Shown in pieces: positions 35,391-59,067 of a stretch of DNA of 64,000 bases; position 1 is the stretch's first letter, and the number at the start of each line of letters is the position of its first letter. The position numbers were made by a program, and so were the translations under genes. The notes below the pieces were generated by a model, which did not search any database, was not told where the DNA came from, and saw only the letters and a program-made list of their open reading frames with translations. Origin of the DNA: Yoonia sp. R2331. GTDB lineage: Bacteria > Pseudomonadota > Alphaproteobacteria > Rhodobacterales > Rhodobacteraceae. The stretch lies in assembly GCF_041103235.1 (NCBI RefSeq), contig NZ_JBGCUN010000001.1, positions 2,604,001 through 2,668,000 on the forward strand, given 5' to 3'.

Positions 35391-36220
35391 TCGACGTCAA
35401 TATCGGTGACCTGACGGTCAGCAACGACCGCCCGCTTTTGGTCATCGCGGGTCCCTGCCAGCTTGAAAGCACCGATCACGCGCTGATGATTGCCTCTGAA
35501 ATGGCGCAGGTTTGCGCGGATGCGGGCGCACAGTTCGTCTTCAAGGGAAGCTATGACAAGGCAAACCGCACATCGCTTTCGGGCAAACGCGGCCTTGGCA
35601 TGGATGAAGGCCTGAAGGTCATGCAGACCGTGAAAGATCAGATTGGTTGTCCAACGCTGACCGATGTTCATGCCCCAGACCATTGCGCCACCGTGGCCGA
35701 GGTTGTGGACGTCATGCAAATTCCGGCATTCCTGTGCCGCCAGACCGATCTGTTGCTGGCCGCAGGCGAAACCGGTGCTGTGATCAATGTCAAAAAGGGT
35801 CAGTTTCTCGCCCCTTGGGAATTCCTGAACGTGATCCCAAAAGTCGAAAGCACCGGCAATAAGCGTATCTTGCTGACCGAACGCGGCGTATCCTTTGGTT
35901 ACAACACGCTGGTGGCCGATATGCGCAGTTTGCCAACAATGGCAACCTCCGGTTATCCGGTGGTGATGGACGCCACCCATTCGGTGCAACAACCCGGCGG
36001 CCAAGGCGGCAGTTCCGGCGGCCAGCGCGAATTTGCACCCGTCATGGCCCGTGCGGCGGTGTCACTTGGTATCGCGGCGGTCTTCATCGAAACCCACGAA
36101 GACCCCGACAATGCCCCCTCTGACGGGCCCAACATGATCCCCCTGCCGCAGATGCGCGCCCTTGTGCACAGCCTGATGGGCTTTGACGCGCTGGCCAAGG
36201 CGGACCCGCTGCGCGTCTGA
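35387..36220 (+). CDS. kdsA: 3-deoxy-8-phosphooctulonate synthase
   Basis: Makes Kdo-8-phosphate from arabinose-5-phosphate and PEP, for lipopolysaccharide core and possibly a Kdo-linked capsule anchor. The 277-residue barrel has GPCQLES near residue 22, GSYDKANRTS near 58 and MDATHSVQQPGG in the middle, all standard KdsA motifs. It is coupled to the KpsE-like gene by a four-base overlap. The shared operon supports a role in capsule assembly. Confidence 0.95.
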   Translation: MIDVNIGDLTVSNDRPLLVIAGPCQLESTDHALMIASEMAQVCADAGAQFVFKGSYDKANRTSLSGKRGLGMDEGLKVMQTVKDQIGCPTLTDVHAPDHCATVAEVVDVMQIPAFLCRQTDLLLAAGETGAVINVKKGQFLAPWEFLNVIPKVESTGNKRILLTERGVSFGYNTLVADMRSLPTMATSGYPVVMDATHSVQQPGGQGGSSGGQREFAPVMARAAVSLGIAAVFIETHEDPDNAPSDGPNMIPLPQMRALVHSLMGFDALAKADPLRV

Positions 36221-36280
36221 CAGGGCTTTCCCAAATTGCACAATCGCCCTAGTCTGCGTCAAAATTGACCGGGACGATTG

Positions 36281-37588
36281 ATGCGTATTCTGACCCTTTT
36301 GGCCGTGTTGCTGGCCCTTGCCCTACCCCTTTCCGCACAAGAGGCGACCGGCACGATCACCGCTGTCAGTTCCGATCAGCAAGACGCCGACATGGCCGTC
36401 CGCATTCGCGAAATCCTCGACGCGCTAGGCAACTATGACGATGTGACGGTCGTGGTCGACGAAGGCGTGGTCACCCTGCGCGGCACCGCGACCTCCTTGG
36501 CAGAGGCAGAGGCGCTGGACCCACTGGTCAACCGGATCGAAGGCGTGGTGGCAGTGCGCAACACCGTTGTTGAAACCACCGATGTGGCCGCGCGCCTGAA
36601 CCCCGCGGTCGAACGGTTCCGCGCCCGCTTTGACCAGACGGTCACGCTCTTGCCGCTCTTGCTGATCGCCCTTACCGCTTTCGCCGCGATTGTCTTTCTG
36701 GGCTTCCTGATCGCGCGCCAAAAAGGGCCGTTCAAACGGCTGGCCCCCAATGATTTCATCGCCGACATCTATCGCCAGCTAATCCGGTTGGCGTTTCTGG
36801 TCTTTGGCCTGATTGTGGCGCTCGACATCCTGAACGCCACCGCCCTTCTGACCCCGATCCTTGGTGCTGCAGGTATCGTAGGCCTTGCGATCGGTTTTGC
36901 GGTCAAGGACACGGTTGAAAACTTCATTGCCTCGATCATGCTTTCGATCCGGCAACCCTTCCGCCCCAATGACGCGATTGAGATCAACGGCGACGAGGGC
37001 AAGGTCATCCGCCTGACCAGCCGGGCCACCATCCTGCTGAGTTACGATGGTAACCACATCCGCATCCCTAATAGCACCGTCTTCAAAAGCCGGATCGTCA
37101 ATTTTACCCGCAACGCCGAACGTCGGTTTCAGTTTGAAATCGGCGTTGCATCTGATGCAGACCTGACCGTCGTGCGCGATCTGGCCGAAAACACCATCAC
37201 GCAATTGCCTTTTGTTTTGGGCGAACCGGCCCCGTTGGTCTGGATCGACCGGATCGGGGACGGCGCGGTTTTTCTTGTAGTCACTGGCTGGATCGACCAG
37301 ACCGAAACCTCGCTTGTCCGGGCCAAAGGCGAAGCGTTGCGACAGGTCAAAAACGCGATCGAGGTCTCAGGCGTCGAAGTGCCGGATACCACCTATCGCA
37401 TTCAGATGCTCGGCGCGGTGGACTCGGACGAACGCACCGTTTCGGCCCCTGCGTCTCCACCTGTCCGACACCCGGAAATCAGCGATGTCGCCGCCTCAAA
37501 CGACGAGGCGCTGGAACGGATTATTGACGCCGAACGGGCCGAGACAGAGCGCGATGACCTCCTCGATCAGGACGGCCAATCAGAATAA
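36281..37588 (+). CDS. BON-domain mechanosensitive ion channel (MscS family)
   Basis: A 435-residue envelope channel. A signal peptide (RILTLLAVLLALALPLSAQ) leads into a BON domain (about residues 37-95, with VTLRGTATSLAEAEAL). Three membrane helices follow at about 120-145, 170-190 and 195-215, then the MscS beta and C-terminal domains. The pore-lining helix contains GAAGIVGLAIGFAVKD. The BON domain may bind lipid or peptidoglycan. The ATG at 36281 directly follows an in-frame TTG. A C-terminal acidic tail ends the protein. Confidence 0.9.
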   Translation: MRILTLLAVLLALALPLSAQEATGTITAVSSDQQDADMAVRIREILDALGNYDDVTVVVDEGVVTLRGTATSLAEAEALDPLVNRIEGVVAVRNTVVETTDVAARLNPAVERFRARFDQTVTLLPLLLIALTAFAAIVFLGFLIARQKGPFKRLAPNDFIADIYRQLIRLAFLVFGLIVALDILNATALLTPILGAAGIVGLAIGFAVKDTVENFIASIMLSIRQPFRPNDAIEINGDEGKVIRLTSRATILLSYDGNHIRIPNSTVFKSRIVNFTRNAERRFQFEIGVASDADLTVVRDLAENTITQLPFVLGEPAPLVWIDRIGDGAVFLVVTGWIDQTETSLVRAKGEALRQVKNAIEVSGVEVPDTTYRIQMLGAVDSDERTVSAPASPPVRHPEISDVAASNDEALERIIDAERAETERDDLLDQDGQSE

Positions 37589-37651
37589 GCATTTTTCGCA
37601 TCTGAGGGGCTTGAACCGGCCAAACCTCTGGCGTATCTAGCGCCACGCTGT

Positions 37652-37726
37652 TGGGGTGTAGCCAAGCGGTAAGGCATCGGTTTTTGGTACCGTGTATCGT
37701 AGGTTCGAATCCTACCACCCCAGCCA
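37652..37726 (+). tRNA. tRNA-Gln (anticodon TTG)
   Basis: A complete cloverleaf: acceptor stem TGGGGTG / CACCCCA, T-arm GTAGG-TTCGAAT-CCTAC and encoded CCA end. The anticodon loop TTTTGGT carries TTG. The mature body is 37652-37723 plus G discriminator and CCA. The serine recombinase of a probable island begins 168 bases downstream. Confidence 0.97.
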
Positions 37727-37893
37727 GCGTTTACACCTAAACCGCTGATACATGTGTCTCCGGCAATTAGTGCCGTTGTTTCCGTGGCTTGCGCGGGTGT
37801 GCTTTTGCGGCAGACAGTCTACGGCCAGTAATATCTGGCAATCAACCGCATCAGTCTGCGTTTGCCATTTCCGCGATACACTTTGGGGGCGTT

Positions 37894-39495
37894 TTAGAGG
37901 TTTGCGATGCGCTTGCGCTGCGCATCCCAGTCGGCGGGCAGATCGTGTCGGAGGAGCCAGTCCGAGGTCAAGCCAATCGGCTGTTTGCCTTGCGTAATCT
38001 GACGGACAACGTCCGGTGCAAGGAATGCGAGAGCGATCATCTGCTGGATGCGGCGCTTTGATGTTCCGGTCTCAGATGAGATATCGTCAAACGTCGCGCC
38101 TTCTTTGATCCGTTTATACCAGTGATTGGCATTGGCAATGTTGCGCATCAGCCGTTCATCAACCGTGTTATCGCCTTCAACGACAAGCTTCATCTCTGCG
38201 CCCCGGCGACGCGCGGTGAACGGCAGGAAGAGTTGTAGCTCATTCAATTCTAGAGCTGTCGACGTTTCGAGAAGAGTTAGAATCTGTTTCGGTTCGAGCT
38301 GGATTGTCAGCCCGCCGGGTTTGATCTGTACGGTCTTGACTGTCTTGAATGCGCAAATGCGATCAATGACCATGGCATTGCTGGCCACAATCGTTTGTCC
38401 CGCACTACGGATGCAAAGATCGCGAATGTGTTTCTGCACCGCCTCGGCAATGGGGTCTTCCAATTGAGCCGCAGGGATCCGCCATGTCCGCTGCTTGTCA
38501 TCCGCACGGGTCACACCCGTCACCAACTTCTGCGAGATGTAGTAACGGTACCGTCGGTCACCCTTCTTGGTATGGCTGGGCGTCAGCTTCTGGCCGGTTT
38601 CATCCACGATCTTCCCTGCCAATGGAGATGGATCACGGTGCTGTTTGGTATGCCGTCTCTTTGCGCTCTTGCCCGATAGTTGCCGTTGAAGGCGGTCCCA
38701 CCTGTCAGGATCAATGATCGCCGGGTGCTGCCCCTCAAAGACCTGTCGTTTATGCCGGATGCGTCCGGCATAGATCGGGTTGGTCAGGATGTGATGCAGC
38801 TGCCCGCGCGAAATCAATTGCCCACCGCGCAGTCTGCCATCAGCAAGCTGGCATTGCTTTGATCGCAAGCCGAGCTGCTCCGTCTTCTCCCGCACTTTGT
38901 TTATGGCGCCGCAGTCGTCGTAGAGATCGTAGATCGTATTGACCGTTCGTGCCTCCTTCGGGTTGATCGTGAGTGTTCTGCCTGCTGGGTCGTAACCCAG
39001 TGGCACGTTGCCACCCATCCAGAGCCCTTTGCGTTTAGAAGCCGCAATCTTGTCGCGGATGCGTTCTGCGGTGACTTCTCGTTCAAACTGGGCAAAGCTG
39101 AGCAGGACGTTGAGTGTCAGCCGTCCCATGCTGGTGGACGTATTGAAGCTCTGTGTGACAGAGACAAACGACGCACCTGCCTCATCCAGACGATCCACGA
39201 GCTTGGCAAAGTCAGCAAGCGATCTGGTCAGGCGGTCGATCTTGTAGACAACGATCTGGTCAACCTGCTTGGTATCAACCTCATTCATCAGACGTTGCAG
39301 TGCCGGACGTTCAAGATGGCCGCCTGATATCCCACCGTCATCATAGTGGTCAGGCAACAGCTCCCATCCCTCATGACGCTGGCTGGCGATGTAAGCTTCG
39401 CAGGCCTCGCGTTGGGCATCCAGAGAGTTAAAGTCTTGCTCCAATCCGTCTTCAGAGCTCTTGCGGGTATAGATGGCGCAACGAACGCGGTTCAT
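37894..39495 (-). CDS. large serine recombinase (site-specific integrase)
   Basis: A 533-residue resolvase-type integrase that likely mobilises the island. The N-terminal catalytic domain (about 1-150) has the active Ser in IYTRKSSEDGLEQDFNSLDA and the YKIDRLTRS motif. A recombinase domain follows, then a zinc-ribbon-like and coiled-coil region. The ATG at 39495 overlaps the stop of the DUF2924 gene, so the two are coupled. The upstream extra residues in the open frame lie inside that gene. It sits near tRNA-Gln, though serine integrases do not usually use tRNA genes. Confidence 0.93.
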   Translation of the reverse strand: MNRVRCAIYTRKSSEDGLEQDFNSLDAQREACEAYIASQRHEGWELLPDHYDDGGISGGHLERPALQRLMNEVDTKQVDQIVVYKIDRLTRSLADFAKLVDRLDEAGASFVSVTQSFNTSTSMGRLTLNVLLSFAQFEREVTAERIRDKIAASKRKGLWMGGNVPLGYDPAGRTLTINPKEARTVNTIYDLYDDCGAINKVREKTEQLGLRSKQCQLADGRLRGGQLISRGQLHHILTNPIYAGRIRHKRQVFEGQHPAIIDPDRWDRLQRQLSGKSAKRRHTKQHRDPSPLAGKIVDETGQKLTPSHTKKGDRRYRYYISQKLVTGVTRADDKQRTWRIPAAQLEDPIAEAVQKHIRDLCIRSAGQTIVASNAMVIDRICAFKTVKTVQIKPGGLTIQLEPKQILTLLETSTALELNELQLFLPFTARRRGAEMKLVVEGDNTVDERLMRNIANANHWYKRIKEGATFDDISSETGTSKRRIQQMIALAFLAPDVVRQITQGKQPIGLTSDWLLRHDLPADWDAQRKRIANL

Positions 39496-39923
39496 TGGGC
39501 TTTGTTCAGGCCAAAGAAACGCGGGCCGCTCCATCCTGCCCCAGTAATCCGCTTCGCGATCGCACTGAGCGACTGATAGGGCTGACCTTCCATCTCAAAC
39601 CCATCAAACGTGACATCGACGCGATAGATCCGACCATTCCACTCGCGGACAAGCTGCGTTCCAGGTGTCAGGATCGGTCTGGCCGCGCTAGCTGCACCGT
39701 TGCGAGCACCACCCGCTATCTGCCGGCGCAACTGCCGCTTCACACCAGCGCTTTGGCCGCCCATCACGCTACACTGCCACTCGAAAGCGATCGCTTTGCG
39801 CAGAAACGTCGCCGAGAGGTGCCGACCTGGAGCCGCTCCTGTCAGCTTCAACCACTCCGCAGCACAACGCGCTTTGTCCCACATGACCACGTCCGAAAGT
39901 TCTTGCGGATTGTCACCTCTCAT
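39492..39923 (-). CDS. DUF2924 domain protein
   Basis: A 143-residue protein of the DUF2924 family, regularly found just upstream of alphaproteobacterial serine recombinases. The C-terminal part has the family core GTQLVREWNGRIYRVDVTF and ITGAGWSGPRFFGL. It overlaps the recombinase gene by four bases and the DUF3489 gene by four bases. It might assist DNA binding by the recombinase, as inferred only from its linkage. Confidence 0.88.
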   Translation of the reverse strand: MRGDNPQELSDVVMWDKARCAAEWLKLTGAAPGRHLSATFLRKAIAFEWQCSVMGGQSAGVKRQLRRQIAGGARNGAASAARPILTPGTQLVREWNGRIYRVDVTFDGFEMEGQPYQSLSAIAKRITGAGWSGPRFFGLNKAQ

Positions 39924-40135
39924 GTCGTTTGCTCAGCTGATACGGCTTGATAGAGCGCGCCTTTAGCTGAAGTGCTGCAGCGGACAAACATCCCCCTTTT
40001 GCGCAGCCGTGAGATCTCCGCGCGGATTGTGTGTGGCTGCCAGTCAAGTTGCTCTTGCAGCGTTGCGACTGTTGCGCCTGACTTCCGGCTGATCAATTTG
40101 GCCAGCTGTGCGCGTTTGGTGATGGATTGCGTCAT
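39920..40135 (-). CDS. DUF3489 domain (small winged-helix) protein
   Basis: A 71-residue protein with the DUF3489 pattern: SKRKAQLxxLI-type helix (AQLAKLISRKSGATVATL), WQPHTIRAEISRLRKRG, then a short wing ALYQAV. It is a likely DNA-binding partner or regulator of the recombinase unit. The ATG at 40135 is preceded by AGGAGA, which decides against the upstream in-frame start. Confidence 0.85.
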   Translation of the reverse strand: MTQSITKRAQLAKLISRKSGATVATLQEQLDWQPHTIRAEISRLRKRGMFVRCSTSAKGALYQAVSAEQTT

Positions 40136-40225
40136 GATTGTCTCCTGCTTGGACCATAGAAAATCTAGGTCCTTGTACTGAGACAAACCCGGGCTTGCCG
40201 GGTGAGGTTGAATTTGTGACTGTGA

Positions 40226-40429
40226 CTATCTGTTCAGCGCGTCAGATAACCCCACTAGCAGGTCACTCGCCTGCTGGTGCAAGACATTAAGTTCGGCTGC
40301 GAGCTCCTTATTGCGCGAGACCGATAGCCCGGCGGTCTGCCCTGCCGTCGCAACGCCTGCCCCGTCTTCAAACACACAGGTCAGTCGCGCAAATACCGCC
40401 GCAAAGTCAAACAAGCCGCTCTCTTCCAT
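40226..40429 (-). CDS. hypothetical protein of the recombinase cassette
   Basis: A possible 67-residue acidic protein (MEESGLFDFAAVFARL start) with a helical, coiled-coil-like C-terminus (KELAAELNVLHQQASDLL). It is first in the run of four minus-strand genes ending in the recombinase. The start at 40429 is preferred to a longer frame that reads into untypical sequence. Family unknown. Confidence 0.55.
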   Translation of the reverse strand: MEESGLFDFAAVFARLTCVFEDGAGVATAGQTAGLSVSRNKELAAELNVLHQQASDLLVGLSDALNR

Positions 40430-40694
40430 GGCTCCACACGTGCTTGCAGCGGCGGCGAAGTCCAGTGGTTTGTGAAAAGAGATTGGCAATAGTGGGCGGA
40501 AAGGAGACCTTCGCTGCGCAAGGCATGAGGCTTGGCCCAGACAGAGTAAGCGGACTTTCAACCCCGTGGGGCTCGCCTTCCGAACTCAAGGTGAGGTATC
40601 ATTCTCCAATACAACCGATCTATCAGATATTTATGTACCCAATCCTCACAAATTTGAGGTGGCGAAGGTCGCTAGGTGAATTGGAGCGAGAGAA
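40430..40694. other. 265-base spacer between recombinase cassette and SIR2 operon
   Basis: No convincing gene. It must hold the promoters of the divergent recombinase cassette and SIR2 operon. Its 3' half is AT-rich (TATCAGATATTTATGTACCC at about 40620-40640), unlike the host average, and fits a promoter toward the SIR2 gene. Confidence 0.4.
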
Positions 40695-41984
40695 TTGATC
40701 AATTTTAGAAAGGGTAGCAAAAACGAGTTCGCCAAACTCCCGCCCGAGGCTGAATTCGATGATCGGACTGAAATCATCAGGCGACACTTGGCTGAAGTCT
40801 TTGGCTCCAAAAATCTGTCGTTTCTCATTGGGTCAGGGTGTTCCTCCTTCAAGCAAGTGGAAGAAGAGTTCGGCATCCCCACAATGGGGCCTTTGGCGCA
40901 GGAGTTTCAAAACACTTTCCAGACATTGCCCGGTCTGCCGCCTGCGAGCAGTTATGTGACGAGCGCGCAGAAAACTGCGCTTCTCGACAAGCTTGGCATC
41001 GACCTTGCCCATCAAGACTTCCATTGGAACCTTGAGCGTATGATGGAAGTCCTGATGACGGCGCATCAATTTTGCAAAACAAGCAGTAGGGACGATTTGC
41101 AGGACGCCCTAACTACCGTTGAGGAGGTGATTGCAGGGGTTAAAAAATTCATCCTACAGAAATGCACGGAAGGTCGGTTCGCTCAGGGCGACGATAGCGT
41201 CGTGTCACTTTACCGCCGTTTCTATCAGTCGCTTTCGACGCGTTCTCGCGGGCTCGCGCCACCTTGGGTGTTCACCACCAATTACGACCTATTCAATGAG
41301 CGGGCGATGGACCGATCAGGAATTCCCTATTCTAACGGGTTTGCAGGCACGGTCGAGCGTCGCTTCAATCCCGCCACCTATCGTCGAGCTTTGGCCGAGC
41401 AACTCGATATTTCATCGAAGAGGTGGGCTGCCGTTGATGGGTATGTCCATTTCTGCAAGCTCCACGGTTCCGTCAACTGGACGGAAGAGGAGGCTGGCCT
41501 TTTCCCGATCCGTGAGTCGGCCGACAAACTTGACCCTGCGCAGGATCGCGTCATGATTTATCCGACGCCTTCGAAACAGACGGCGAGCTTTGGCTCGCCA
41601 TACTCGGATATGTTCCGCGAGTTTCAGCGACAAATTGTTCAAGATCAGAGCGTCCTGTTTGTAATGGGGTTCAGCTTTGGCGACGAGCACATCAACAACA
41701 TAATTTTTCAGGGACTTACTCTCCCTGGTTTTAGGCTTATTGCCTTCCTCAACCCCGACGACGCGAATAACCCTGTGACGCAGGAGCTCGCAGCGCTAGG
41801 CGATCCTCGGATTTGGTTCATCTGGGGCACTGACGAAGAAAGTCAAAAGAAGGCGCACTACTTCGATACCATTGTGCAGGACTTAATGCCGTCGAGTGCT
41901 GATCAGAAAGAAGACCAAGCCATCGAAAAGGTGCTCAAGAAACTTCTTTCTAAACAGCAAGGTGGTGAAGATGGCGAAGGATGA
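40695..41984 (+). CDS. SIR2-domain protein (defence-type NADase candidate)
   Basis: A 429-residue protein with a SIR2-like NAD-binding fold. The NAD loop is FLIGSGCSS near residue 45, the Asn is in VFTTNYDLF near 195, and the catalytic-type His is in FCKLHGSVNW near 255. LFVMGFSFGDEHI is the later family motif. In SIR2-HerA anti-phage systems such domains deplete NAD on infection. The start is a TTG at 40695 with a weak ribosome site; no better upstream start is seen. It overlaps the herA gene by 14 bases, showing tight coupling. Confidence 0.88.
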   Translation: MINFRKGSKNEFAKLPPEAEFDDRTEIIRRHLAEVFGSKNLSFLIGSGCSSFKQVEEEFGIPTMGPLAQEFQNTFQTLPGLPPASSYVTSAQKTALLDKLGIDLAHQDFHWNLERMMEVLMTAHQFCKTSSRDDLQDALTTVEEVIAGVKKFILQKCTEGRFAQGDDSVVSLYRRFYQSLSTRSRGLAPPWVFTTNYDLFNERAMDRSGIPYSNGFAGTVERRFNPATYRRALAEQLDISSKRWAAVDGYVHFCKLHGSVNWTEEEAGLFPIRESADKLDPAQDRVMIYPTPSKQTASFGSPYSDMFREFQRQIVQDQSVLFVMGFSFGDEHINNIIFQGLTLPGFRLIAFLNPDDANNPVTQELAALGDPRIWFIWGTDEESQKKAHYFDTIVQDLMPSSADQKEDQAIEKVLKKLLSKQQGGEDGEG

Positions 41985-44022
41985 CGTAAGCCGTGCCATC
42001 GGCAAGATTGTCAGTGTTTCTGCCGATCGCTTGGTTGTAGAGCTCCATAGGGGCAGCGATAATTTCACAGTCGTTGGCTTCGACGATGTCCACTACGTCG
42101 CGACCCTTGGGTCATATTTAATGGTGCCGACACAATCCGAATATGTCGTTCTAGAAGTTATCGGTCTTCGCGAGAAGGATTTTTCTCCCGCTTTCGGAGA
42201 CGGAGCCGAAATGGACAAGGCAACGGCAGCCAAGTTTCTCGATGTTGTACCGGTTGGTTCTATGCCCGTTCAAGGGGGCTCGTTCAAATTCGGGGTTTCA
42301 ACTTATCCCCCTCTCTACGCAGATGCGCTCTACGCCCGCGATGAAGACCTAGATCGCATCTTCAACGTGGAACAACCGCCCGACGAGGTGACAAAGACCG
42401 ATGCCGATGGCGCAGCAAAACAGGGAACAGTGCCCCATACAATCGAGATCGGCACGTCGGCGGTTTTCAAGGACTATCCTGTTAAGGCGCAGCTCGACGC
42501 CCTCTTCGGCGGACACGTCGCCGTTCTTGGCAACACGGGAAGTGGCAAGTCCTGCACCGTCGCGTCTATAATTCAGTCGGTGTTTGATCGCACGGAAGAA
42601 TTTTGGGCTATTGGGGCTTCGTTTGTGCTCTTCGATGTCAACGGAGAGTATCGACAGGCATTTGAAGATATGCCTTGGCAGATTCAGGCAAGCTACTTCA
42701 AAGCAACCAATTCAGATGTTGAAGCCGAACGATTAGATGAGGGTTTCCTGGGTGCCGATCTAGTTGACCGTTTCCGCCTTCCTCATTGGTTCATGACCGT
42801 TGAAGAGTGGGCTCTTTTGCTACGGGCGAGCGAGAAAACGCAACTCCCAGTTTTGCGTACGGCTCTCGGACTCACAACGCTATTTCAGGAAACTCCCGGA
42901 GATGATGTTGTGGACGATCCTGGTAACAAGGATGAGTTAATCGAAATCCAGAACCACGTTCTGGCAAAGATCATCTATTCCATCCTGCATGGCGACGCCA
43001 GTTCGCCAAGCAAGGTAGATCGCATCTTGGCAGTCCTCGGCACCTATTCGACTAATGAGATAAACAAGACCACGGTATCATCAGGTCTGACTATCGACTT
43101 TGGGCAGTTTAAGGATGGCCCTAAGCAAGAAACATCAAAAAAGTACGATGCACTTCTGGAGCTCTTGCAAAATCATCAAAGGGACGAACCTATTCTCCCA
43201 AGCTATGAGAATAATCCATTCTCATTTGAGCGGCTTCAGACCGCATAGAACCTTGCACTCTTCTATGAAGAGGCTAATGGAAACAAGCAGATAAGAGAGT
43301 ATTGCTCACAGCTTGTCACACGGTTGAAATCCGTCTCTGACAATCCTGATTTTGAGTTCCTGCGCGCCTCTGTCGAAGACTTGCAGGACCATGACAGAGA
43401 GCCGACAGTTTTCGTGGATCGGCTCCTCGGTATCGCAAGGAATGGCACAAGTTACCGCAAAGATCGCCAAATCTGTATCATCGACCTGAATGACGCTTCC
43501 GACGAAATCGTCGAACTCGCGTCAGCGGTGGTCGCCAGGCTAATCTTTGATCGCATGCGCCGCGCGGACCCCCGAAACCAAATGCCCGTCCATCTGATCC
43601 TGGAAGAGGCGCATCGCTATATTTCGGAGCGTCCAAGCCGATTTGCCATTGACGCCGGGATCACATTTCAGAGAATTGCGAAAGAGGGGCGGAAATATGG
43701 AGCTTTCCTGATGGTCGCATCTCAGAGACCGAGCGAGCTTTCGAAGACAGTGCTTTCGCAGTGTAACAATTTCATCATTCACCGCATCCAGAACCCCGAT
43801 GATCTTTCGCAGATCAAGCAGATGACGCCGTTCATCTCGGAAACAGTTCTGAAACGCCTCCCATCTCTACCGAAGCAGCACGCGCTAATTTTCGGGAGTG
43901 CTGTGAAAATTCCGACCACTTTCCGTGTTCGGGACGCTAATCCCACCCCAAACAGCGGCGACACACAGGTTCGCGACCTTTGGTTTGTCCCCCAGAATCC
44001 GATTTTATATTGGGACGTTTAG
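41971..44022 (+). pseudogene. HerA-type ATPase with in-frame amber stop
   Basis: A 683-residue-equivalent FtsK/HerA hexameric ATPase, partner of SIR2 proteins in defence islands. The N-terminal HAS-barrel region is followed by Walker A, LGNTGSGKSCT near residue 187. A TAG at 43246-43248 (codon 426) interrupts the frame. The same frame continues with no other stop to Walker B (HLILEEAHRYI, about 540) and the late motif SQRPSELSKTVLSQCNNFI. Stopped at the TAG, the product lacks Walker B and would not hydrolyse ATP. It is either a recent mutation, suppression, or a sequencing error. Confidence 0.85.
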
Positions 44023-44061
44023 CTTCTATACATTCCGTGATTTCGAATTGGTAGCACGAGA

Positions 44062-44886
44062 ATGACAACCATTGCTGCATGGCTCTCAGTATCGGCTACG
44101 GGCCCCAGGACTTTCTACTTAGGGGCTGATAGTCAAGGTATATCGCTTCAGACCGGTCAGGCCGTGTCGTTGCGCGAAAAGAAAGTTTTTGACAGTGCTT
44201 CCACGCCTGAAATTTTTACCCTCTCAGGCGACCTCATGTGGGGGAGCTCTTTCCTGCGCCGGCTACTGATAGAAATTGACCGAGGTTCAGTTAGTTCATC
44301 GCTAGGTACCAGAATGCGAGCTGAAGAGTTTTGTAGATTATCTTGTGCCCGCCCGCCGTTAGCCCCGATTTGCGAACTCGAAATTCTGTATGGTGTGCGG
44401 AGCAATGCAAAAATTTCCGCGGATTTTCAGATGTATCGACTGCACCATGCTGGAAGTGCGAGTTCTACTTGGCAAGTGGACCAAGTCGGTGTGAAAGAGT
44501 TGGGCAGCGATGTTTCGGCGCTTGTCTACAGCTCGGGTCTAGGTGGTCGCCCAAACAAGAAGCGGCAAAAGTGGATTTCCGAGGGCGATCAGGGCAATGT
44601 AGCACGGATTTGTTTTTGGTCACTCTGCGATCTGATCGACGGGATACCTTCTAACTCCTTCATGACTGGAGGTCATCCACAACTCGTAAAACTAGACCAA
44701 GACGGCTGCGGCAACGTCGTCGGCGTGAAGTTCAATGGCGTCCCCACAGTCTACGGAAGGCGCACCACTGCACCCCAGAGTTTTGCGCACCACTGGGTTG
44801 ATGAGAATTTCACCCAGTTGGACCCAAAAACCTTGGAGAAATACAAACATGGACAGAGATACGGTCGAGGTGTTCAAGGGCGATGA
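44062..44886 (+). CDS. Ntn-hydrolase-like (proteasome/HslV-like) protein
   Basis: A 274-residue protein starting M-TTIAAWLSVSATGPRTFYL. Removal of Met would expose Thr1. An Asp follows in GADSQGIS (about 22), a Lys in REKKVF (39-40) and a Gly-rich turn in TLSGDLMWGSS, the spacing of the proteasome/HslV catalytic set (Thr1, Asp17, Lys33). The rest diverges. It is 40 bases after the herA frame on the same strand, so it probably belongs to that operon. It could be a protease that processes a partner or attacks phage proteins; that is inference. Confidence 0.6.
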   Translation: MTTIAAWLSVSATGPRTFYLGADSQGISLQTGQAVSLREKKVFDSASTPEIFTLSGDLMWGSSFLRRLLIEIDRGSVSSSLGTRMRAEEFCRLSCARPPLAPICELEILYGVRSNAKISADFQMYRLHHAGSASSTWQVDQVGVKELGSDVSALVYSSGLGGRPNKKRQKWISEGDQGNVARICFWSLCDLIDGIPSNSFMTGGHPQLVKLDQDGCGNVVGVKFNGVPTVYGRRTTAPQSFAHHWVDENFTQLDPKTLEKYKHGQRYGRGVQGR

Positions 44887-44979
44887 CGGCTAGTCAGTAA
44901 CTGGCAACGTCCGCATCGACGAAGCTGCACCGCAGCGCCGCTCCATTCGGCGAACGGCAGGAATGGGCCGGTTTCTGTT

Positions 44980-45897
44980 CTAAGGTGCGGTGATGGGCGG
45001 TGGTTTTCTTCGCTTGCCCGACAGCGCATTGCCCGCGATCGCCGCAAGCAGAACAGCACCTCCTATCAGGGTATTTGCAGTCGCGGTTTCCCCTAGAAAC
45101 AGCCAGACCCAGAGTGGGCCGAGTAGCACCTCGGCTAATGACAGCAGAGCGAGCTCCGCCGCAGGAAGGCTGCGCGACCCCAGCGTGTAGAGGATCAGTC
45201 CAGCGCCGACCTGAAACACGCCCATGCCCATGGCGATCCCGCCGTCATTGGGGCTCAGAACTAGCGAGAGATCGAGGCCAAAGCAGATCGCCAAGGTGAT
45301 GACGATGGCGAAGATGCCCGACAGGAACACTGCTGGCAGCATTTCCCCTGTTCGCCCCCATCGCAGCGCCACGGTGAAGACCGCAAACCCGAATGCTGAT
45401 CCAAGCGCGGCGAGGCTGCCTTTCAGAGCGACGCCTCCGGATTTATCGGCAACCATGATCCCGATTCCGCCGATTGCAACGGCGATCGCTATCCACGTTG
45501 CAGCACGGACAGGTTCCTGCAACACTATCCATCCGAGAACTGCAGCCATAAACGGTGCTGTCGCAAACAGAAGCATCGCATTCGCGACCGAGGTGTTTTG
45601 AATCGCGTAGATGCCCCCGGAGTAGGCCGCAACCAACGAAAGCCCTGCGATGATCGCAGGGGCACCATTGCGGCGGATCTGAACAAAGGGGCTTTCGCCA
45701 GACCGCACACGGATAAGCACATACAAGAAGAGCGACATGCTGATCGAACGATAGAGCAGTATCTGCCATACGACAGCATCTTCGATCAGGCGAATGCCAA
45801 GGCCGACAGTTGACCACAGCATACCCGCAGCAAATACGAAGAGCACACCGTACTTGTGGGCACCCGCGTTGGGAGATGTTGGCGCTAAGGATGTCAT
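44980..45897 (-). CDS. EamA/DMT family transporter
   Basis: A 305-residue inner-membrane protein with ten hydrophobic helices in two EamA repeats. The first repeat has GMLWSTVGLGIRLI, and the second the ALGSAFGFAVFTVALRWG segment. Family members export or import metabolites such as amino acids. Substrate unknown. It lies between the defence operon and the methyltransferase region and may be island cargo. Confidence 0.88.
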   Translation of the reverse strand: MTSLAPTSPNAGAHKYGVLFVFAAGMLWSTVGLGIRLIEDAVVWQILLYRSISMSLFLYVLIRVRSGESPFVQIRRNGAPAIIAGLSLVAAYSGGIYAIQNTSVANAMLLFATAPFMAAVLGWIVLQEPVRAATWIAIAVAIGGIGIMVADKSGGVALKGSLAALGSAFGFAVFTVALRWGRTGEMLPAVFLSGIFAIVITLAICFGLDLSLVLSPNDGGIAMGMGVFQVGAGLILYTLGSRSLPAAELALLSLAEVLLGPLWVWLFLGETATANTLIGGAVLLAAIAGNALSGKRRKPPPITAP

Positions 45898-46188
45898 GTT
45901 CGGCCGATCAATAAAGTCATATCGTTGAGGCTAGCGAGTTGGTGAGTGCATCAACCATCAATTTGCGACATTCACGCGGCTGGTCTATCGCGGCCTTTGA
46001 CACCCTGGGCTGCCAGGTGACTTACGAATGGCCGCTTTGGTGAATGCGCCGCCGCATTAGGTAACAACGGCAAAGTCCGGTTCGGGCCGTCATTTGGCTC
46101 CAGATTGGTCCCACCTGCTAATCACCGCATAGGCCGGCTCATCTGCGGGCGCAGCCAAAGCAAGAGCTCTAGGCTACGCCCTATGTAG
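45898..46188. other. 291-base intergenic stretch
   Basis: No gene, RNA or strong repeat found. It contains the EamA promoter region and separates it from the DUF5681 gene that ends at 46189. Short frames here look random. Confidence 0.4.
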
Positions 46189-46578
46189 TTAGCTATCCGA
46201 ATACGTATCTGGATCGAAACCTGCCATTTCCAAAAAACGACGTTTCGCCCCTGCGTATTCATCAGCGTGTTCTTTCTCGGCCTTGTCGCCATCAGGCACG
46301 ACGACAAGTATAGCATTCACGATGCTGAACAAGGCCGCTTTGTCACCCTTAAGGGCCTTGCGGCATTGCTGAAGATAGGCCGCCTCAAGTGAACCAAGCC
46401 TCTCCGTCCTACCATTACTGGTTTTTGCGTTCACCGGCTCTGACAAGATTTCGGAGTACCGTTCGAAGTTTTCTTGCTTCGATTTTGGACGACCGCGTGG
46501 GTTGCCGCTTTGTCCCTTTTTCCACCGCGCAGAATTTGGGGGCTTGCAGTACCCGACCTCCTTCTCACTTTCCGCCAT
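46189..46578 (-). CDS. DUF5681 domain protein (copy 2)
   Basis: A 129-residue protein with the DUF5681 core RWKKGQSGNPRGRPKSKQ at residues 18-35. Such proteins commonly accompany ParB-like methyltransferases and terminases in prophage-like regions. The charged helical C-terminus ends FDPDTYSDS. The start overlaps the stop of a second DUF5681 gene by 14 bases; the two paralogues differ outside the KGQSGNP-GRP core. Confidence 0.82.
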   Translation of the reverse strand: MAESEKEVGYCKPPNSARWKKGQSGNPRGRPKSKQENFERYSEILSEPVNAKTSNGRTERLGSLEAAYLQQCRKALKGDKAALFSIVNAILVVVPDGDKAEKEHADEYAGAKRRFLEMAGFDPDTYSDS

Positions 46579-46927
46579 CTTTGTGTTCCCCCTCTTGTTT
46601 CGCGGCAGCAACTTTCTGCATCTCTGCGAACCGCTCTTTGACCTCGAGAATGTCCACCAAATAATCCACGTCGCTGCTAGCTGGACGACCGATGTCATAA
46701 GAGCGTTGCTGCAACGCGATGGCGCGGCGATCCCCCGTTAAGGCAACTGCCCGCAAGCGCTGCATAAGCGCCTCGCCCATTGGCACCTTTCGATTTTCGC
46801 TGGCGATCGATACCTTGCGCTTCAGCACCCTCTGCAAGACCTTGTATGGCGTCTGAGGCTGCTTTGGGCGACCGTTTGGGTTGCCGGATTGGCCTTTCTT
46901 AAATTGACCTGATATCGGCGGTTTCAT
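46565..46927 (-). CDS. DUF5681 domain protein (copy 1)
   Basis: A 120-residue protein with GQFKKGQSGNPNGRPKQPQT at the N-terminus, the DUF5681 motif. The rest is helical and charged. It overlaps the methyltransferase gene by four bases and the next DUF5681 gene by 14 bases, forming a three-gene operon. Function unknown, but likely DNA-binding by its basic motif. Confidence 0.82.
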   Translation of the reverse strand: MKPPISGQFKKGQSGNPNGRPKQPQTPYKVLQRVLKRKVSIASENRKVPMGEALMQRLRAVALTGDRRAIALQQRSYDIGRPASSDVDYLVDILEVKERFAEMQKVAAAKQEGEHKDGGK

Positions 46928-48333
46928 ATAGCCACTTGTATAGGGTTCGAGATCGTTCGTGCTGCCGGCTCCGTATCTGTGAGATCTGCCTGTGCCGCGC
47001 GCGCGGCTGCGACCTCGTCATATGATTCGCCTGTCTCCGCCAAGCGAGCCGTCATACCCGTCAGAGCTGCAAACCTGCGACAAATGACATCACAATAGTG
47101 CGCATCAAGCTCGACTAAGCGTGCAATCCGACCTGCCCGATGGGCAGCCATAAGCGTTGTGCCAGAGCCGCCAAAACCATCGAGCACGATGTCACCGCGC
47201 TTGCTGACGTCTTTGATAGCGTCAGCCACCATGGCAACGGGCTTCACCGTTGGATGAAGCTGGAGGTCTTTTTGATTTGAACCGAAGCTGTTCACGCCCG
47301 GGTATTCCCAAACATTTGTACGATAGCGACCATGTTCACCCAAACCAAAATTATTGACATGCGCCGCGTCACCTACCTTGTAGGTAAAAATCAACTCGTG
47401 TTGAGAGCGGTAAAACGTGCCCATACCGCCGTTGCTCTTCTTCCAAACGATCAAATTTTTGAGCTCAGCGTAGACTTCATCGCCCGCGCGCTGCAGCTCT
47501 GGTATGTGGCGCCAGTCCATACAGACAAAGTGAATAGCGCCGTCGACACTGGCACCCGCCATCGCGCCAAGAGCCCTTTGCAGGAACTCCGCAAATGCGG
47601 TCTCAGTCATTTCACCTGACGCCATCGCAAATTCACGATGCTGCACCTTGCCAGAGCCACAAACATGGCCAGAGATCTTGACGTTGTAGGGCGGATCAGT
47701 GAACACCGTACGGGCACGTTCACCCTGCATAAGCTTGTTATACGTCTCTGCGTTTTGTGCATCACCACAAATCAACTTGTGATCGCCTAGCAGCCAAACA
47801 TCACCCGGCTGTGTGACCGCAACACCTGCGACAGCCTCAGGCAGATCGTCATCGTCGTCGGCATGTTCATTGGCACTGCCATCCAGCAAAAGATCGAGTT
47901 CCGCCGTTTCAAAGCCAGTGATTTCAAGATCGAAATCAAGATCAAGCTCTTCGAGCGCTTGAAACTCAATGGCAAGAATATCGCGATCCCACCCCGCCAA
48001 CTCTGCAAGCCGATTGTCCGCGATCACATACGCGCGACGTTCAGCCTCATTGAGATGTCCAAGCACAATTGTCGGAACGGCATCGAGACCAAGTTGTCGG
48101 GCAGCCAAAACACGTCCGTGTCCCGCAATGATGACGCCATTGTCATCGACCAGTACAGGGTTCACAAAACCAAACTTTGTGATCGAAGCGGCAATCTGCG
48201 CGATTTGCTTGTCGGAATGCGTGCGTGCATTCCGGTCGTAGCTTTGCAGCTTTTTGGGATCGCGAGGTGCAATCTTGAGCTTCGTAGACGCCGGCAAGTC
48301 TGGAACACGCGTTCCACTCTTTAATTTTGACAT
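46924..48333 (-). CDS. ParB-domain DNA methyltransferase
   Basis: A 469-residue fusion. The N-terminal ParB/Srx-like nuclease or DNA-binding domain (about 20-125) has HSDKQIAQIAASITKFGF, VDDNGVIIAGHGR and the RLAELAGWD tail. The C-terminal part is an N4/N6-type methyltransferase with TDPPYNVKISG (motif IV, near residue 210) before DGFGGSGTT (motif I, near 400), the beta-class order. Phage-related regions often carry such solitary enzymes. The start at 48333 is chosen over 48351 because GGAAGGA lies 6-12 bases before it. Confidence 0.88.
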   Translation of the reverse strand: MSKLKSGTRVPDLPASTKLKIAPRDPKKLQSYDRNARTHSDKQIAQIAASITKFGFVNPVLVDDNGVIIAGHGRVLAARQLGLDAVPTIVLGHLNEAERRAYVIADNRLAELAGWDRDILAIEFQALEELDLDFDLEITGFETAELDLLLDGSANEHADDDDDLPEAVAGVAVTQPGDVWLLGDHKLICGDAQNAETYNKLMQGERARTVFTDPPYNVKISGHVCGSGKVQHREFAMASGEMTETAFAEFLQRALGAMAGASVDGAIHFVCMDWRHIPELQRAGDEVYAELKNLIVWKKSNGGMGTFYRSQHELIFTYKVGDAAHVNNFGLGEHGRYRTNVWEYPGVNSFGSNQKDLQLHPTVKPVAMVADAIKDVSKRGDIVLDGFGGSGTTLMAAHRAGRIARLVELDAHYCDVICRRFAALTGMTARLAETGESYDEVAAARAAQADLTDTEPAARTISNPIQVAI

Positions 48334-48783
48334 GAGGAAATCCTTCCACATTATGTGCGGTGCAAAATTATGCGACCGTCACGAGCCACACTCCCCTTCA
48401 AAAGATCGAGTGCAGCAGATTTCATAAAGTTTGAAGGCCGAGCCTGTCGGGGCTCTGTGGAAGGGCCAGATCGCTCCGGCACAAGATCGGCAGGCCCTCC
48501 CACCGATCACTTCGCAATTGTTGATCTCAGAATTGCGTTCTCGCGTTCAAACGCGTCGCCGCTCTTCTAGGTGCAAGGTGGCGTTGGACGCCCGACTTGC
48601 AAGGCCATGGCTACTGCGCAGGATCTCGATATGGCAAGGACGAAATTTACTAATCCGGGCAAAAATATAAATGGCTTATATAAAAAGTGACATCTCTCGT
48701 CACCACGACGCTATTTTACAGCAATTATTCAGGACATCAGCGCCGCAACTTCCGGATCAGCGCTTGGCCGATTCGACGCAGTC
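48334..48783. other. 450-base intergenic stretch upstream of methyltransferase operon
   Basis: No supported gene. It includes an AT-rich segment (about 48660-48710, with TATAAATGGC and TATATAAAAAG) unlike the host composition, likely the promoter zone of the methyltransferase operon. The short frames here look random. Confidence 0.4.
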
Positions 48784-48993
48784 TCAATCAAGTAGATCAC
48801 CACAAGACACCGTCATTGCCCGTGCAAGTCGGTCGATCACTTCGATCGTCGGATTGCGCGCGGCACGTTCCAGATCACTAATGTAGGTGCGATGAATCCC
48901 GGCGTGATGCGCGAGTTCTTCCTGGGACCAACCGCGAGACCGGCGCAATTTGCGCATATTTGTACTGAGGCGGTTCCGGATTTCCATGGCCAC
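48784..48993 (-). CDS. XRE-family helix-turn-helix regulator
   Basis: A 69-residue single-domain Cro/CI-type repressor. The helix-turn-helix spans SQEELAHHAGIHRTYISDLE, followed by the typical PTIEVIDRLARAM helix. Such small regulators often control restriction-modification or phage genes. The start may be 48993 or the third-codon ATG at 48987. It is divergent from the gene at 49107 and upstream of the methyltransferase operon, which it may control. Confidence 0.9.
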   Translation of the reverse strand: MAMEIRNRLSTNMRKLRRSRGWSQEELAHHAGIHRTYISDLERAARNPTIEVIDRLARAMTVSCGDLLD

Positions 48994-49106
48994 AATGGGG
49001 CGCAGTGTCGCCGATCCGTCTACAGACGATCAGTGACAATAGTTGTTGACTTTGATTGGAATGGAAGCACTTTTCGGTGTCACTTATCGACGACACTGGA
49101 GGTAAC

Positions 49107-49871
49107 ATGAAAGCAAACCAAAGCCCTCACCAAGCAATAGGTAGTGTTCCTGACAACGCTGCAGAGCGTCTTGCTGATTACATACTTCGGACCGGACTGA
49201 AGCCGCTGCCGTTGCCAAAAGAGTTCTACTACGCCTCTCTTCCGATCTGCGTCATCGACGCGGTTTATTCGATCGGCGTCAGTTACAGTTCTACGCGCAA
49301 CACCGTTGCGCGATTTTGTGACCGCCAAAATTGGACGATGTCACTGCCGCCAGGCGCAGAGCGGCTGAACGGCGAGCATCGAATCTCCGGCTTCCTGAAG
49401 TTGATAGATGGTGCCACCGCTGACCAACTTGCGGACGATCTCTTCGGGAATAGGCAACGGACGTCGAGCCGGTCGGGAATCTTGAAGGCAGAAGCAGTGC
49501 GGAGATTTGCATCGGCGCTATTCGCAGAAGGCATCGATGACTTCGGGGACCTTAGCATGGAAAGGCTCGCCCCAGCTGAGCGCACGGTCCGGCAAATACC
49601 GGGTCAGAGAAGCGGGATATCTTTCGATTATTTTCGGATGCTTGCCGGTGACGATCAACTGATCAAACCAGATCGCATGGTGCAGCGCTACGTTGCGCGG
49701 GCCATTGGTGGGTCCTCAACTCAAATCACTCCAGATCAAGTTCGGGACACCGTGCAACAGGCCGTCACGCATTTGTCGCCACAGGGCCCAAGCTGGACAC
49801 CTCGTGTTTTGGATTTTGCGATCTGGGAAGCGGAGCGAGCCAATCGATATCAACCAGCAGATTGGCGATGA
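49107..49871 (+). CDS. divergent HhH-GPD DNA-glycosylase-like protein
   Basis: A 254-residue protein. The region 165-205 matches the helix-hairpin-helix plus Asp pattern of endonuclease III/MutY: VRQIPGQRSGISFDYFRML, then KPDRMVQRYVARAIG with the catalytic-type Asp. No Lys is seen at the AP-lyase site, so a monofunctional enzyme is likely if active. The earlier part has AVYSIGVSYSSTRNTV. GGAGGT before the ATG decides the start. Its XRE neighbour and low-GC context suggest a mobile-island origin. The family assignment is tentative. Confidence 0.5.
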   Translation: MKANQSPHQAIGSVPDNAAERLADYILRTGLKPLPLPKEFYYASLPICVIDAVYSIGVSYSSTRNTVARFCDRQNWTMSLPPGAERLNGEHRISGFLKLIDGATADQLADDLFGNRQRTSSRSGILKAEAVRRFASALFAEGIDDFGDLSMERLAPAERTVRQIPGQRSGISFDYFRMLAGDDQLIKPDRMVQRYVARAIGGSSTQITPDQVRDTVQQAVTHLSPQGPSWTPRVLDFAIWEAERANRYQPADWR

Positions 49872-50014
49872 GTCGACGCGAAGGCTCCATGTCGATCCTT
49901 AGTCGTGATGACGGTCGTTCACTCCGTTGATTGTGGAGGTCAACTATGCGGACTGAACGAACCTTCGCTGCGAGTTCTCAAATGACTGCTATTTGCACAT
50001 TGCGTCCGACATGA

Positions 50015-50056
50015 AACCTGGCATCTGCAGTAGACAATTTTCGCAGATGCCAGGTT
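50015..50056. terminator. long hairpin after the thiolase operon
   Basis: Perfect 14-bp inverted repeat AACCTGGCATCTGC / GCAGATGCCAGGTT with a 14-base loop, about 50 bases past the thiolase stop. Following bases read TTTC on the minus strand, so it may end the catabolic operon. It also marks the probable edge of the island. Confidence 0.6.
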
Positions 50057-50105
50057 GCCAGTGTCTCAGCCAGATTGCACTTTTTTTGAACTCATGTCAG
50101 CAGGG

Positions 50106-51290
50106 TCAGGCGACTTCGAACAGTGCTGCAGCCCCCATGCCTCCGCCGACACACATGGAGGTCACCACGTATTTCACGCCACGACGCCTCCCCTCAATTA
50201 GAGCATGCCCGACTTGTCTCGCACCTGTCATGCCGTAGGGGTGGCCAATCGATATTGCACCGCCGTTCACATTGTAGATTTCGGGATCGATCCCAAGATG
50301 GTCACGGCAATACAGAACCTGGCAGGCAAAGGCTTCGTTAAGCTCCCAAAGGCCGATGTCTTCGATGCGAAGACCTGCATTCTTCAGCAGCTTTGGAATT
50401 GCAAAGATCGGGCCGAACCCCATCTCTTCCGGTGCATTTCCTGCAACAGTCATGCCGCGATAAATACCCAGCGGTGTGAGGCCCCGCTGCTCAGCCATTT
50501 TGCCTTCCATGAGAACACAAGCCGAGGCCCCGTCAGAAAGCTGGCTTGCGTTTCCGGCAGTGATCACGCCGCCTTCGACAACCGGGTTCAACTGGCCAAG
50601 AGTTTCGGCCGTCGTGCCCGGCCGGTTGCCTTCGTCTTTTGACAAGGTCACCTCTTCCAGGGTTTCCTCTCCGGTTTCGCGGTTCTTGACGCGTTTGATC
50701 GCCGTGATCGGGACGATCTCGTCATCAAAAGCGCCAGTGGCCTGAGCCTGGGCCGTCCGGGCTTGGGAAAGTGCGGCGTACTCATCCTGCACCTCGCGGC
50801 TGATCCCATAGGTCCGGGCCACATTTTCCGCTGTCATCAGCATCGGCATATAGGCATGTTCAGATTGGTCGATAACGTTTGGATCTTTCTCATCGCCCGC
50901 CCATTTCAGATAGGCATTCTGCAGGGTGGAGATATTTTCCTGCCCGCCAGCCACGGCAACGTTCTGACCATCCACAATGACCTGCTTTGCAGCCGTCGCA
51001 ATGGCCATCAACCCGGAGGAGCATTGCCTGTCGATCGTCTGTCCTGCCACCGTATTGGGAAAGCCCGCAGCCAGCGCCGACAAACGAGCGACATTCATGC
51101 CTGCTGTTCCCGCAGTCAGGACCGATCCGATGACAACATCTTCGATCAAACCGGGGTCCACGCCTGCACGTTCAACCGCGTGCTGCATGGCGTGCCCCAT
51201 CATGGTAGGGGACTTGATGTTGTTCAGCGCACCTTTGAAGGCAACCCCAATGGGGGTTCGTGCGGTTGAGACGATAACGGCTTCTCTCAT
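50106..51290 (-). CDS. acetyl-CoA C-acyltransferase (thiolase)
   Basis: Cleaves 3-ketoacyl-CoA with CoA to release acetyl-CoA, the last beta-oxidation step. The 394-residue protein has the active Cys in DRQCSSGLMAIATA near residue 87, the GHPYGMTGARQ His near 350 and CVGGGMGAA with the second Cys. Its start overlaps the end of the FadB-like gene by four bases; the operon runs CoA ligase, cupin, FadB, thiolase. Confidence 0.94.
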   Translation of the reverse strand: MREAVIVSTARTPIGVAFKGALNNIKSPTMMGHAMQHAVERAGVDPGLIEDVVIGSVLTAGTAGMNVARLSALAAGFPNTVAGQTIDRQCSSGLMAIATAAKQVIVDGQNVAVAGGQENISTLQNAYLKWAGDEKDPNVIDQSEHAYMPMLMTAENVARTYGISREVQDEYAALSQARTAQAQATGAFDDEIVPITAIKRVKNRETGEETLEEVTLSKDEGNRPGTTAETLGQLNPVVEGGVITAGNASQLSDGASACVLMEGKMAEQRGLTPLGIYRGMTVAGNAPEEMGFGPIFAIPKLLKNAGLRIEDIGLWELNEAFACQVLYCRDHLGIDPEIYNVNGGAISIGHPYGMTGARQVGHALIEGRRRGVKYVVTSMCVGGGMGAAALFEVA

Positions 51291-53407: not shown

Positions 53408-53418
53408 GTTTGGAAACC

Positions 53419-55706: not shown

Positions 55707-55768
55707 GAAGGTGGAATCCTTGAGCTTCTTCACCTGCTAATCTGGCATTTCTCGTCCAGTTGAAGAAT

Positions 55769-55787
55769 TGAAAGGAATTTCCTTTCA
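55769..55787. promoter_or_regulatory. LysR-type operator candidate (palindrome 1)
   Basis: TGAAAGGAA-T-TTCCTTTCA, a perfect 9-bp inverted repeat with one central base, between the CoA ligase operon and its divergent LysR regulator. The location and symmetry fit a regulator binding site. Confidence 0.6.
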
Positions 55788-55894
55788 TCAAGAAATTCTA
55801 ACCGATCATATCGCACCGCGAATTGTGTTTTACCCCCTGACAGGCTATGAAAAAGAGTATCAAAACCCTGCTGCATTCGCGCCAGTCGTCGGAT

Positions 55895-55920
55895 AACTCT
55901 GCTTGATGGTAAGCAGAGTT
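55895..55920. promoter_or_regulatory. palindrome 2 before the LysR gene
   Basis: AACTCTGCTT / AAGCAGAGTT, a perfect 10-bp repeat with a 6-base spacer, ending 11 bases before the AAGGAG ribosome site. It could be an autoregulatory operator or an mRNA hairpin. Confidence 0.5.
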
Positions 55921-55943
55921 TGTTTCATCAAGGAGATGCAGCA

Positions 55944-56867: not shown

Positions 56868-56895
56868 TCTGTTGGATTCCAGCTCTGCCGTCAGC

Positions 56896-56915
56896 GCGCG
56901 TCAGGACTGACGCGC
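56896..56915. terminator. hairpin between LysR and proV-type genes
   Basis: Perfect 8-bp stem GCGCGTCA / TGACGCGC with a GGAC loop; it covers the stop codon of the ABC ATPase gene on the minus strand. No T-run is seen, so it is a possible shared terminator for the convergent genes. Confidence 0.4.
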
Positions 56916-57959: not shown

Positions 57960-57971
57960 TGAACCGGCTCC

Positions 57972-59000: not shown

Positions 59001-59032
59001 TTATCCCACTTTCCGATCTACTTCAGTGCGTT

Positions 59033-59056: not shown

Positions 59057-59067
59057 GTCCGTGCAGT

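Follow-up and report, generated by a model that had tools for sequence, protein, structure and literature searches.

Does a gene for a predicted proteasome-like protein, found directly behind a SIR2 gene and a herA gene, work with the defence pair that these two families are known to form, or is it only carried along with them? The question is raised by a locus in a stretch of 64,000 nucleotides from Yoonia sp. R2331 (contig NZ_JBGCUN010000001.1, positions 2,604,001 to 2,668,000), which is called the window below and whose own positions are used throughout. We read the locus as a mobile defence cassette that consists of a SIR2-HerA pair and an optional accessory gene for a predicted proteasome-like protein, and we give this reading a probability of roughly 0.5. 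The features concerned are the following.

40695..41984, plus strand: SIR2-family gene with a TTG start, 429 amino acids (PADLOC PDLC04084, Pfam SIR2_2)
41971..44022, plus strand: herA frame, split by an in-frame stop (PADLOC PDLC04102 for both parts)
41971-43248, plus strand: first part of herA, with the P-loop
43246..43248, plus strand: in-frame TAG within herA (sequence and translation)
43249-44022, plus strand: second part of herA
44023..44061, plus strand: 39-bp gap from the herA stop to the third-gene start (promoter scan, leader alignment)
44062..44886, plus strand: third gene, 274 amino acids, predicted proteasome-like N-terminal-threonine (Ntn) fold (predicted structure, conserved residues)
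40533..44926, no strand: variable cassette, delimited by flanks matched to the same-species genome G388

The original prediction, made from the DNA letters, had placed three genes close together on one strand, with the third 40 bases downstream of the second. All three do lie on the plus strand at the coordinates above, the SIR2 and herA frames overlap by 14 nt, and the third gene stands directly behind herA, at a measured distance of 39 bp. Close homologues of the third gene were then sought elsewhere with queries that contained no SIR2 or HerA sequence. A scan of genome contigs with an alignment of the third gene gave 22 loci, 4 of them close, of which 3 were behind SIR2-HerA and 1 was behind a herA remnant (an earlier scan of genome contigs with the single third protein had given no match). 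A plasmid search added one more close homologue, from Paracoccus versutus, again behind SIR2-HerA. The five close homologues outside the window (74-82% identical) are thus distributed over four genome contigs and one plasmid; four stand directly behind the pair, so the condition named as refuting the original prediction, a third gene never beside the pair elsewhere, did not hold. The fifth (L026) has no more of herA upstream than its final 12 codons (E 0.005). This fifth homologue is located on a 3.5-kb contig of Oceanibium sediminis and its third gene stops after residue 217; for these reasons, the 12 herA codons and the stop, it was excluded from the cassette count. The search patterns miss homologues without the motifs they contain, so these counts of close homologues are lower bounds.

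The trio, its gene order and the 39-bp gap were the same in all five complete cassettes (the window counted), and for this reason its recurrence is not put down to chance. In the four pairwise comparisons with the window, DNA homology began no more than 139 bp before SIR2 and ended no more than 61 bp past the third-gene stop; beyond that, the flanks examined did not match (up to 9 kb; about 2 kb on one side in two cases). Because this block recurs in four other genomes with unrelated flanks, the trio appears to travel as a unit. Intact versions of it occur in Ruegeria, Sinirhodobacter and Paracoccus. A separate promoter would have spoken for a separate transcript of the third gene. None was seen in the 39-bp gap, which suits the predicted operon; one promoter-like match was located inside herA (43649-43676), and the total for the region (5) was not clearly higher than in shuffled sequences (2.8, standard deviation 1.7). 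The third gene is rare, with matches in 4 of 398 genomes of the phylum and 2 of 394 of the family, its own genome included. No close homologue was found in viral contigs, and neither the third gene nor two relatives were found in phage records, although absence from these two collections proves nothing.

The third protein had been taken for a proteasome/HslV-type Ntn hydrolase. Sequence libraries gave this no significant match, while the predicted structure bears it out. The protein was without a match in Pfam (above threshold), PADLOC and NCBIfam, and no match was found among the sequences of the Protein Data Bank (PDB), even with a nine-row profile; one of nine relatives weakly matched the PHROG 'peptidase HslV family' (E 0.039). 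The AF2 model, based on 24 aligned sequences, reached a predicted local distance difference test (pLDDT) score of 84.2 and a predicted template modelling (pTM) score of 0.87. Foldseek matched it to 452 PDB chains at E <= 0.001 (best E 3.6e-8), and the best 50 of these 452 were all proteasome or Anbu subunits. Alignment to a proteasome beta chain with VIA-align gave Z 17.8 and a root mean square deviation of 3.5 over 202 residues, and many of the VIA alignments listed start at model residue 2, paired with chain residue 1. Six unnamed or uncharacterised viral proteins also matched the fold (Foldseek, E <= 0.001). The third protein is therefore predicted to have the proteasome beta fold.

Met1-Thr2, Asp23, Lys41 and Gly56 of the third protein were kept in all 24 aligned rows. 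Paired by motif rather than by superposed coordinates, Thr2, Asp23, Lys41 and Gly56 are the equivalents of Thr1, Asp17, Lys33 and the oxyanion Gly47, which the passages of PMC8665760 cited here name as the shared active site of proteasome homologues. A second set of residues differs. The positions that motif matching assigns to Ser129 and Asp166 were Leu and Ser in six of six cassette copies, whereas they were Ser or Thr and Asp or Glu, respectively, in 20 of 20 distant rows. For the proteasome, the part of PMC4792962 on these residues proposes that Ser129 and Asp166 act as a shuttle that carries a proton to the amine of Thr1, and it reports that D166N cuts activity by about 60%. By the same motif-matched positions, the cassette copies are without the Ser129-Asp166 shuttle of a standard proteasome peptidase. 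They would thus keep the nucleophilic triad, and slow, altered or absent hydrolysis is predicted because the second residue set has changed; for the same reason, ordinary bulk proteolysis by the third protein seems unlikely. The ratio of nonsynonymous to synonymous substitution rates (dN/dS) of the third gene was 0.16-0.25 in nine of ten pairs, while the tenth, with a dS of only 0.06, gave 0.56; by this measure the gene is under purifying selection.

The pair was also followed in its own right. SIR2-led searches found matches in 2 of 394 family genomes (E <= 1e-30), 6 of 385 order genomes (E <= 1e-100) and one viral contig at 83%. Four close SIR2-HerA pairs (L062, L080, L090 and L091; SIR2 83-85%) were without the third gene in the examined DNA, for L062 also in the whole genome, and herA was open in all four. 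DNA homology of L080 to three trio cassettes stops one base before the third-gene start codon, and L062 retains a similar leader that diverges at about the third-gene start. From these two breaks it appears that the third gene was joined or lost at the start-codon boundary. For L090 and L091, homology to L027 ends within the last herA codons. L092 and L027 are one contig, L081 (SIR2 54%) ends inside herA and was left unscored, and L082, L083 (both SIR2 26-28%) and L056 (34%) were too distant and were left out of the close-pair count.

Farther relatives of the pair (SIR2 45-52%; L006-L011, L054, L055 and L093) had an Ntn gene in none of nine cases, in the examined DNA. In four of them (L007, L008, L009 and L055; Niveispirillum, Novosphingobium, Haematobacter and G345), which belong to the same branch with SIR2 47-50% identical, a third gene on the same strand overlaps the 3' end of herA; it encodes an exonuclease, not an Ntn hydrolase (PADLOC DEDDh, E 1.4e-33 for the Haematobacter copy, the other three assigned by near-identical translations). 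L006, L010 and L054 have no similarly sized same-strand gene directly behind herA, and herA of L011 is truncated. Since this sister clade has an exonuclease gene at the place in four loci, a third slot behind SIR2-HerA seems to recur.

Several results weigh against a functional tie between the third gene and the pair. The third gene is present in five of the nine close pairs and absent from four, so the pair apparently does not need it and the gene is best regarded as optional. It evolves faster than SIR2 and HerA. Comparison with an HslV profile (hhalign, with a narrow HslV alignment) gave a probability of 0.2%, within the range of 20 column-shuffled controls, two of which beat it by P-value; because this comparison is not significant, the Ntn assignment is carried by the predicted fold and the active-site pattern. 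The changed Ser129 and Asp166 positions may mean a dead enzyme. The wider family gives further points on this side. Distant homologues, about 18-31% identical, occupy 27 distinct loci; these come from Alpha- and Gammaproteobacteria, from Bacteroidota, from a metagenome-assembled genome of the Phycisphaeraceae, and from plasmids and viral contigs. In the flanks examined, which range from about 0 to 10 kb on each side, none of the 27 has SIR2 or HerA, and a pair farther away is possible; within 5 kb, any one neighbour family is shared by at most 2 of the 27.

In this count duplicates were entered once, namely L002, L017 (= L034), L003 (L018), L004 (L019) and L020 (L012), as was the protein shared by L013 and L029. 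L030 and L031 have the same protein in two genera. The alignment of 20 distant proteins (A6) includes L030 alone of these two, L013 in place of L029 and L034 in place of L017; L014, L015, L016, L018, L019, L031 and L043 are not in it. On the Agrobacterium plasmid of L014 (8001-16801), genes for multiubiquitin, ThiF (adenylyltransferase) and DUF6527 are found at a distance of about 5.5 kb from the stand-alone Ntn homologue.

Because the distant homologues are without SIR2, HerA or a recurrent neighbour, and some sit on viral contigs or plasmids, the third gene could be a passenger. As a self-sufficient accessory gene it would serve a function of its own, perhaps against phages, and would have been fixed behind a single SIR2-HerA lineage to which nothing ties it functionally. 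A simple join or loss, as the end of homology in L080 and the leader of L062 suggest, fits this explanation too. However, the cassette-linked clade was never found away from herA (five of five outside the window, one of them behind the remnant), and the active-site changes are specific to that clade, which is expected of a changed role. The passenger explanation is possible, though less likely than not.

The condition of the window copy itself has to be considered as well. Its SIR2 matches PADLOC PDLC04084 over residues 2-424 of 429 (E 7.5e-179) and is 83-93% identical to SIR2 of the four other trio cassettes. The motifs TTNYD and KLHGS are present and were mapped by motif to the catalytic N-Y-D and His, whose roles are taken from passages of the DSR2 literature. 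Both parts of herA have PADLOC PDLC04102 as the best match (E 2.5e-146 for the first and 7.9e-133 for the second). The TAG at 43246-43248 cuts herA in two: the P-loop, GNTGSGKS, falls in the first part and the stretch LILEEAH in the second. Since the two motifs fall in separate parts, neither part would be a whole ATPase. The predicted SIR2 and HerA pair was thus right as to both families, but herA is not one open gene. It is intact in all four other trio cassettes. Past the stop, dN of the window herA to the four intact copies is 0.039-0.041, compared with 0.042 between two intact copies (dS there is 0.95-1.95, partly saturated), and for this reason the break looks recent. The TAG may also reflect a sequencing error or stop suppression. 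With herA broken, the pair in the window is probably inactive; the cassette type would be a member of the SIR2-HerA system and the window copy a broken member.

From the in-frame stop it could be argued that the whole locus is a decaying remnant without function. This would concern the present strain only and is compatible with the other explanations for intact cassettes. It is doubtful, because the reading frames of SIR2 and of the third gene are uninterrupted and under constraint, and herA past the stop has a dN like that of intact copies, so that at most one gene would have failed recently.

Another explanation is that the third protein is proteasome-like in shape but has no peptidase activity, and serves as a scaffold or sensor by binding HerA or a phage protein; this may overlap with either the passenger explanation or a role in the cassette. 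The change of the Ser129 and Asp166 equivalents in all cassette copies speaks for it, as does the archaeal proteasome, in which Ala at 166 prevented autolysis and catalysis (PMC4792962, same part). However, Met-Thr and the equivalents of Asp17, Lys33 and the oxyanion Gly are kept under purifying selection, and a pure scaffold needs none of them; we regard this explanation as rather unlikely. An antitoxin-like inhibitor that silences SIR2-HerA would suit the end of a toxic-effector operon, a point of position only, and is very improbable, since herA is open in the four close pairs that lack the third gene.

We therefore return to the cassette with an accessory gene, and to how it might work. 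Position, co-transfer, clade restriction and selection lead us to infer that the third protein acts with the pair; its gene would be co-transcribed with SIR2 and herA. SIR2 would be the NAD-consuming effector and HerA its hexameric ATPase partner, as in the known system. Removal of Met1 would make Thr2 the N-terminal nucleophile, with the Thr1-Asp17-Lys33 triad retained. The third protein would then most likely be a narrow, slow or altered hydrolase that acts on one target while SIR2-HerA is engaged, and a phage protein, a host protein or SIR2-HerA itself might be the target. In its strongest form, the protein would be a true third component, its active site retuned, docking on or gated by the hexameric HerA ring and adding a protein-directed activity to an NAD-depleting defence. 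This form we put forward tentatively, as less than probable.

A co-variation of HerA with the third gene was pursued and is kept only as a lead. In the nine close cassettes, HerA columns 201-411 fall into two types that are 48-53% identical between types, while columns 1-200 and 501-683 are 86-98% identical; the tree of SIR2 and of the HerA ends differs from that of the HerA middle, with 100% support. In seven cassettes, 41 HerA columns split the five with the gene from the two without it, and any other 5:2 split is made by at most two columns. With two more pairs the fit became imperfect: the third gene occurs in five of six type A and none of three type B cassettes (Fisher p 0.048, kinship ignored), L091 being type A without it. 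The exonuclease clade, with its constant third gene, varies in columns 201-411 as well.

The insertion site was compared between two strains. G388 matches the window at 35920-40532 (99.2%) and 44927-49964 (99.4%) and, in place of window 40533-44926, holds about 1.85 kb (L052 13440-15285) with one SIR2 gene of the PADLOC type PDC-S25 (E 3.8e-177). This is likewise a SIR2-type defence candidate at the same chromosomal site, but a single gene of another SIR2 family, and the site lacks both HerA and a third gene; the G388 genome as a whole is without any homologue of the third gene. Among six genomes of the genus, own included, the right flank occurs only in the window strain and G388. To the left of the cassette the window has the following genes.

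37894..39534, minus strand: serine recombinase (Pfam Resolvase and Recombinase), also carried by G388
39492..39923, minus strand: DUF2924 gene adjoining the recombinase (Pfam PF11149, E 8.6e-34)
39920..40186, minus strand: DUF3489 gene adjoining the recombinase (Pfam PF11994, E 3.5e-14)

Such a group, in which DUF2924 and DUF3489 genes accompany a large serine recombinase, is a mark of an island. The recombinase region of the window is 99% DNA-identical in G388. Since the recombinase is present in both strains while the cassettes differ, the site has apparently exchanged defence genes within an island common to both. For the same reason, the recombinase need not have moved the trio; no match to it was found in the examined DNA around the four other trio cassettes. 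The G+C content is 0.51-0.54 across 40-45 kb of the window, compared with 0.55-0.65 across 1-37 kb, but values of 0.50-0.58 also prevail across 45-63 kb, so that the trio is not alone in its lower G+C. The neighbouring recombinase and the lower G+C content, from which the original prediction suggested transfer, are both there, and neither singles out this cassette.

A shared repeat at the cassette junctions was weak (5 matches in the window, equalled in 3 of 100 shuffles; 4 matches in the genome versus 1 for a reversed control) and was dropped. Among the phage-like genes just right of the cassette (46189-48351, matched in G388) are one for a DNA methylase, which has ParB and N6_N4_Mtase domains, and one for a small protein that looks by eye to be of the GNPRGRP type. 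Beyond the block common to both strains, the window has a second stretch (49965-60374) with no match in the 39.8 kb of G388 examined; by eye, its genes are metabolic and transporter-like.

How the cassette relates to known systems can now be stated. It has the same two families in the same order (PDLC04084, PDLC04102) as the SIR2-HerA system, for which the portions of PMC11263360 and PMC12198126 used here report NADase activity and an assembly of a SIR2 dodecamer and a HerA hexamer. It differs in the optional proteasome-like gene 39 bp downstream, which does not figure in those portions, and the window copy differs in its broken herA. Against the NCBIfam SIR2-HerA equivalogs, the window SIR2 scored 127.6 of 500 bits and HerA matched only as halves, far under the cut-off. 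The third protein shares the fold and the Thr1, Asp17, Lys33 and Gly47 equivalents with the proteasome-like homologues of Fuchs, Alva and Lupas 2021 (PMC8665760), and its wider family is, likewise, also found on some viral contigs. The relevant passages of that paper divide these homologues into 22 subfamilies and report no function-suggesting genomic contexts and no co-occurring AAA+ interactors, whereas the third gene is in a recurrent SIR2-HerA context. HslV and Anbu belong to the same fold class, and HslV has the same Thr-Thr start; however, the narrow HslV alignment gave no significant profile match and the window genome has its own separate HslV. Among the open-access papers listed for HerA or SIR2 with proteasome, HslV or Ntn, no title or abstract opening mentions such a trio. 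The pair is known and the fold is known, and their linkage is new as far as these titles and abstract openings show.

Through its recurrent link to a known defence pair, which selection maintains, one branch of the orphan proteasome homologues acquires a role that can be tested. A natural test series for laboratory strains is formed by cassettes that carry the gene, lack it or have an exonuclease gene instead, together with the stand-alone sister family, whose active-site positions are unaltered. If the third protein is a true third component, it would be, as far as our searches show, the first functional context for an orphan proteasome homologue and the first case of a defence system in which a proteasome-like protein is combined with an ATPase of the FtsK/HerA type.

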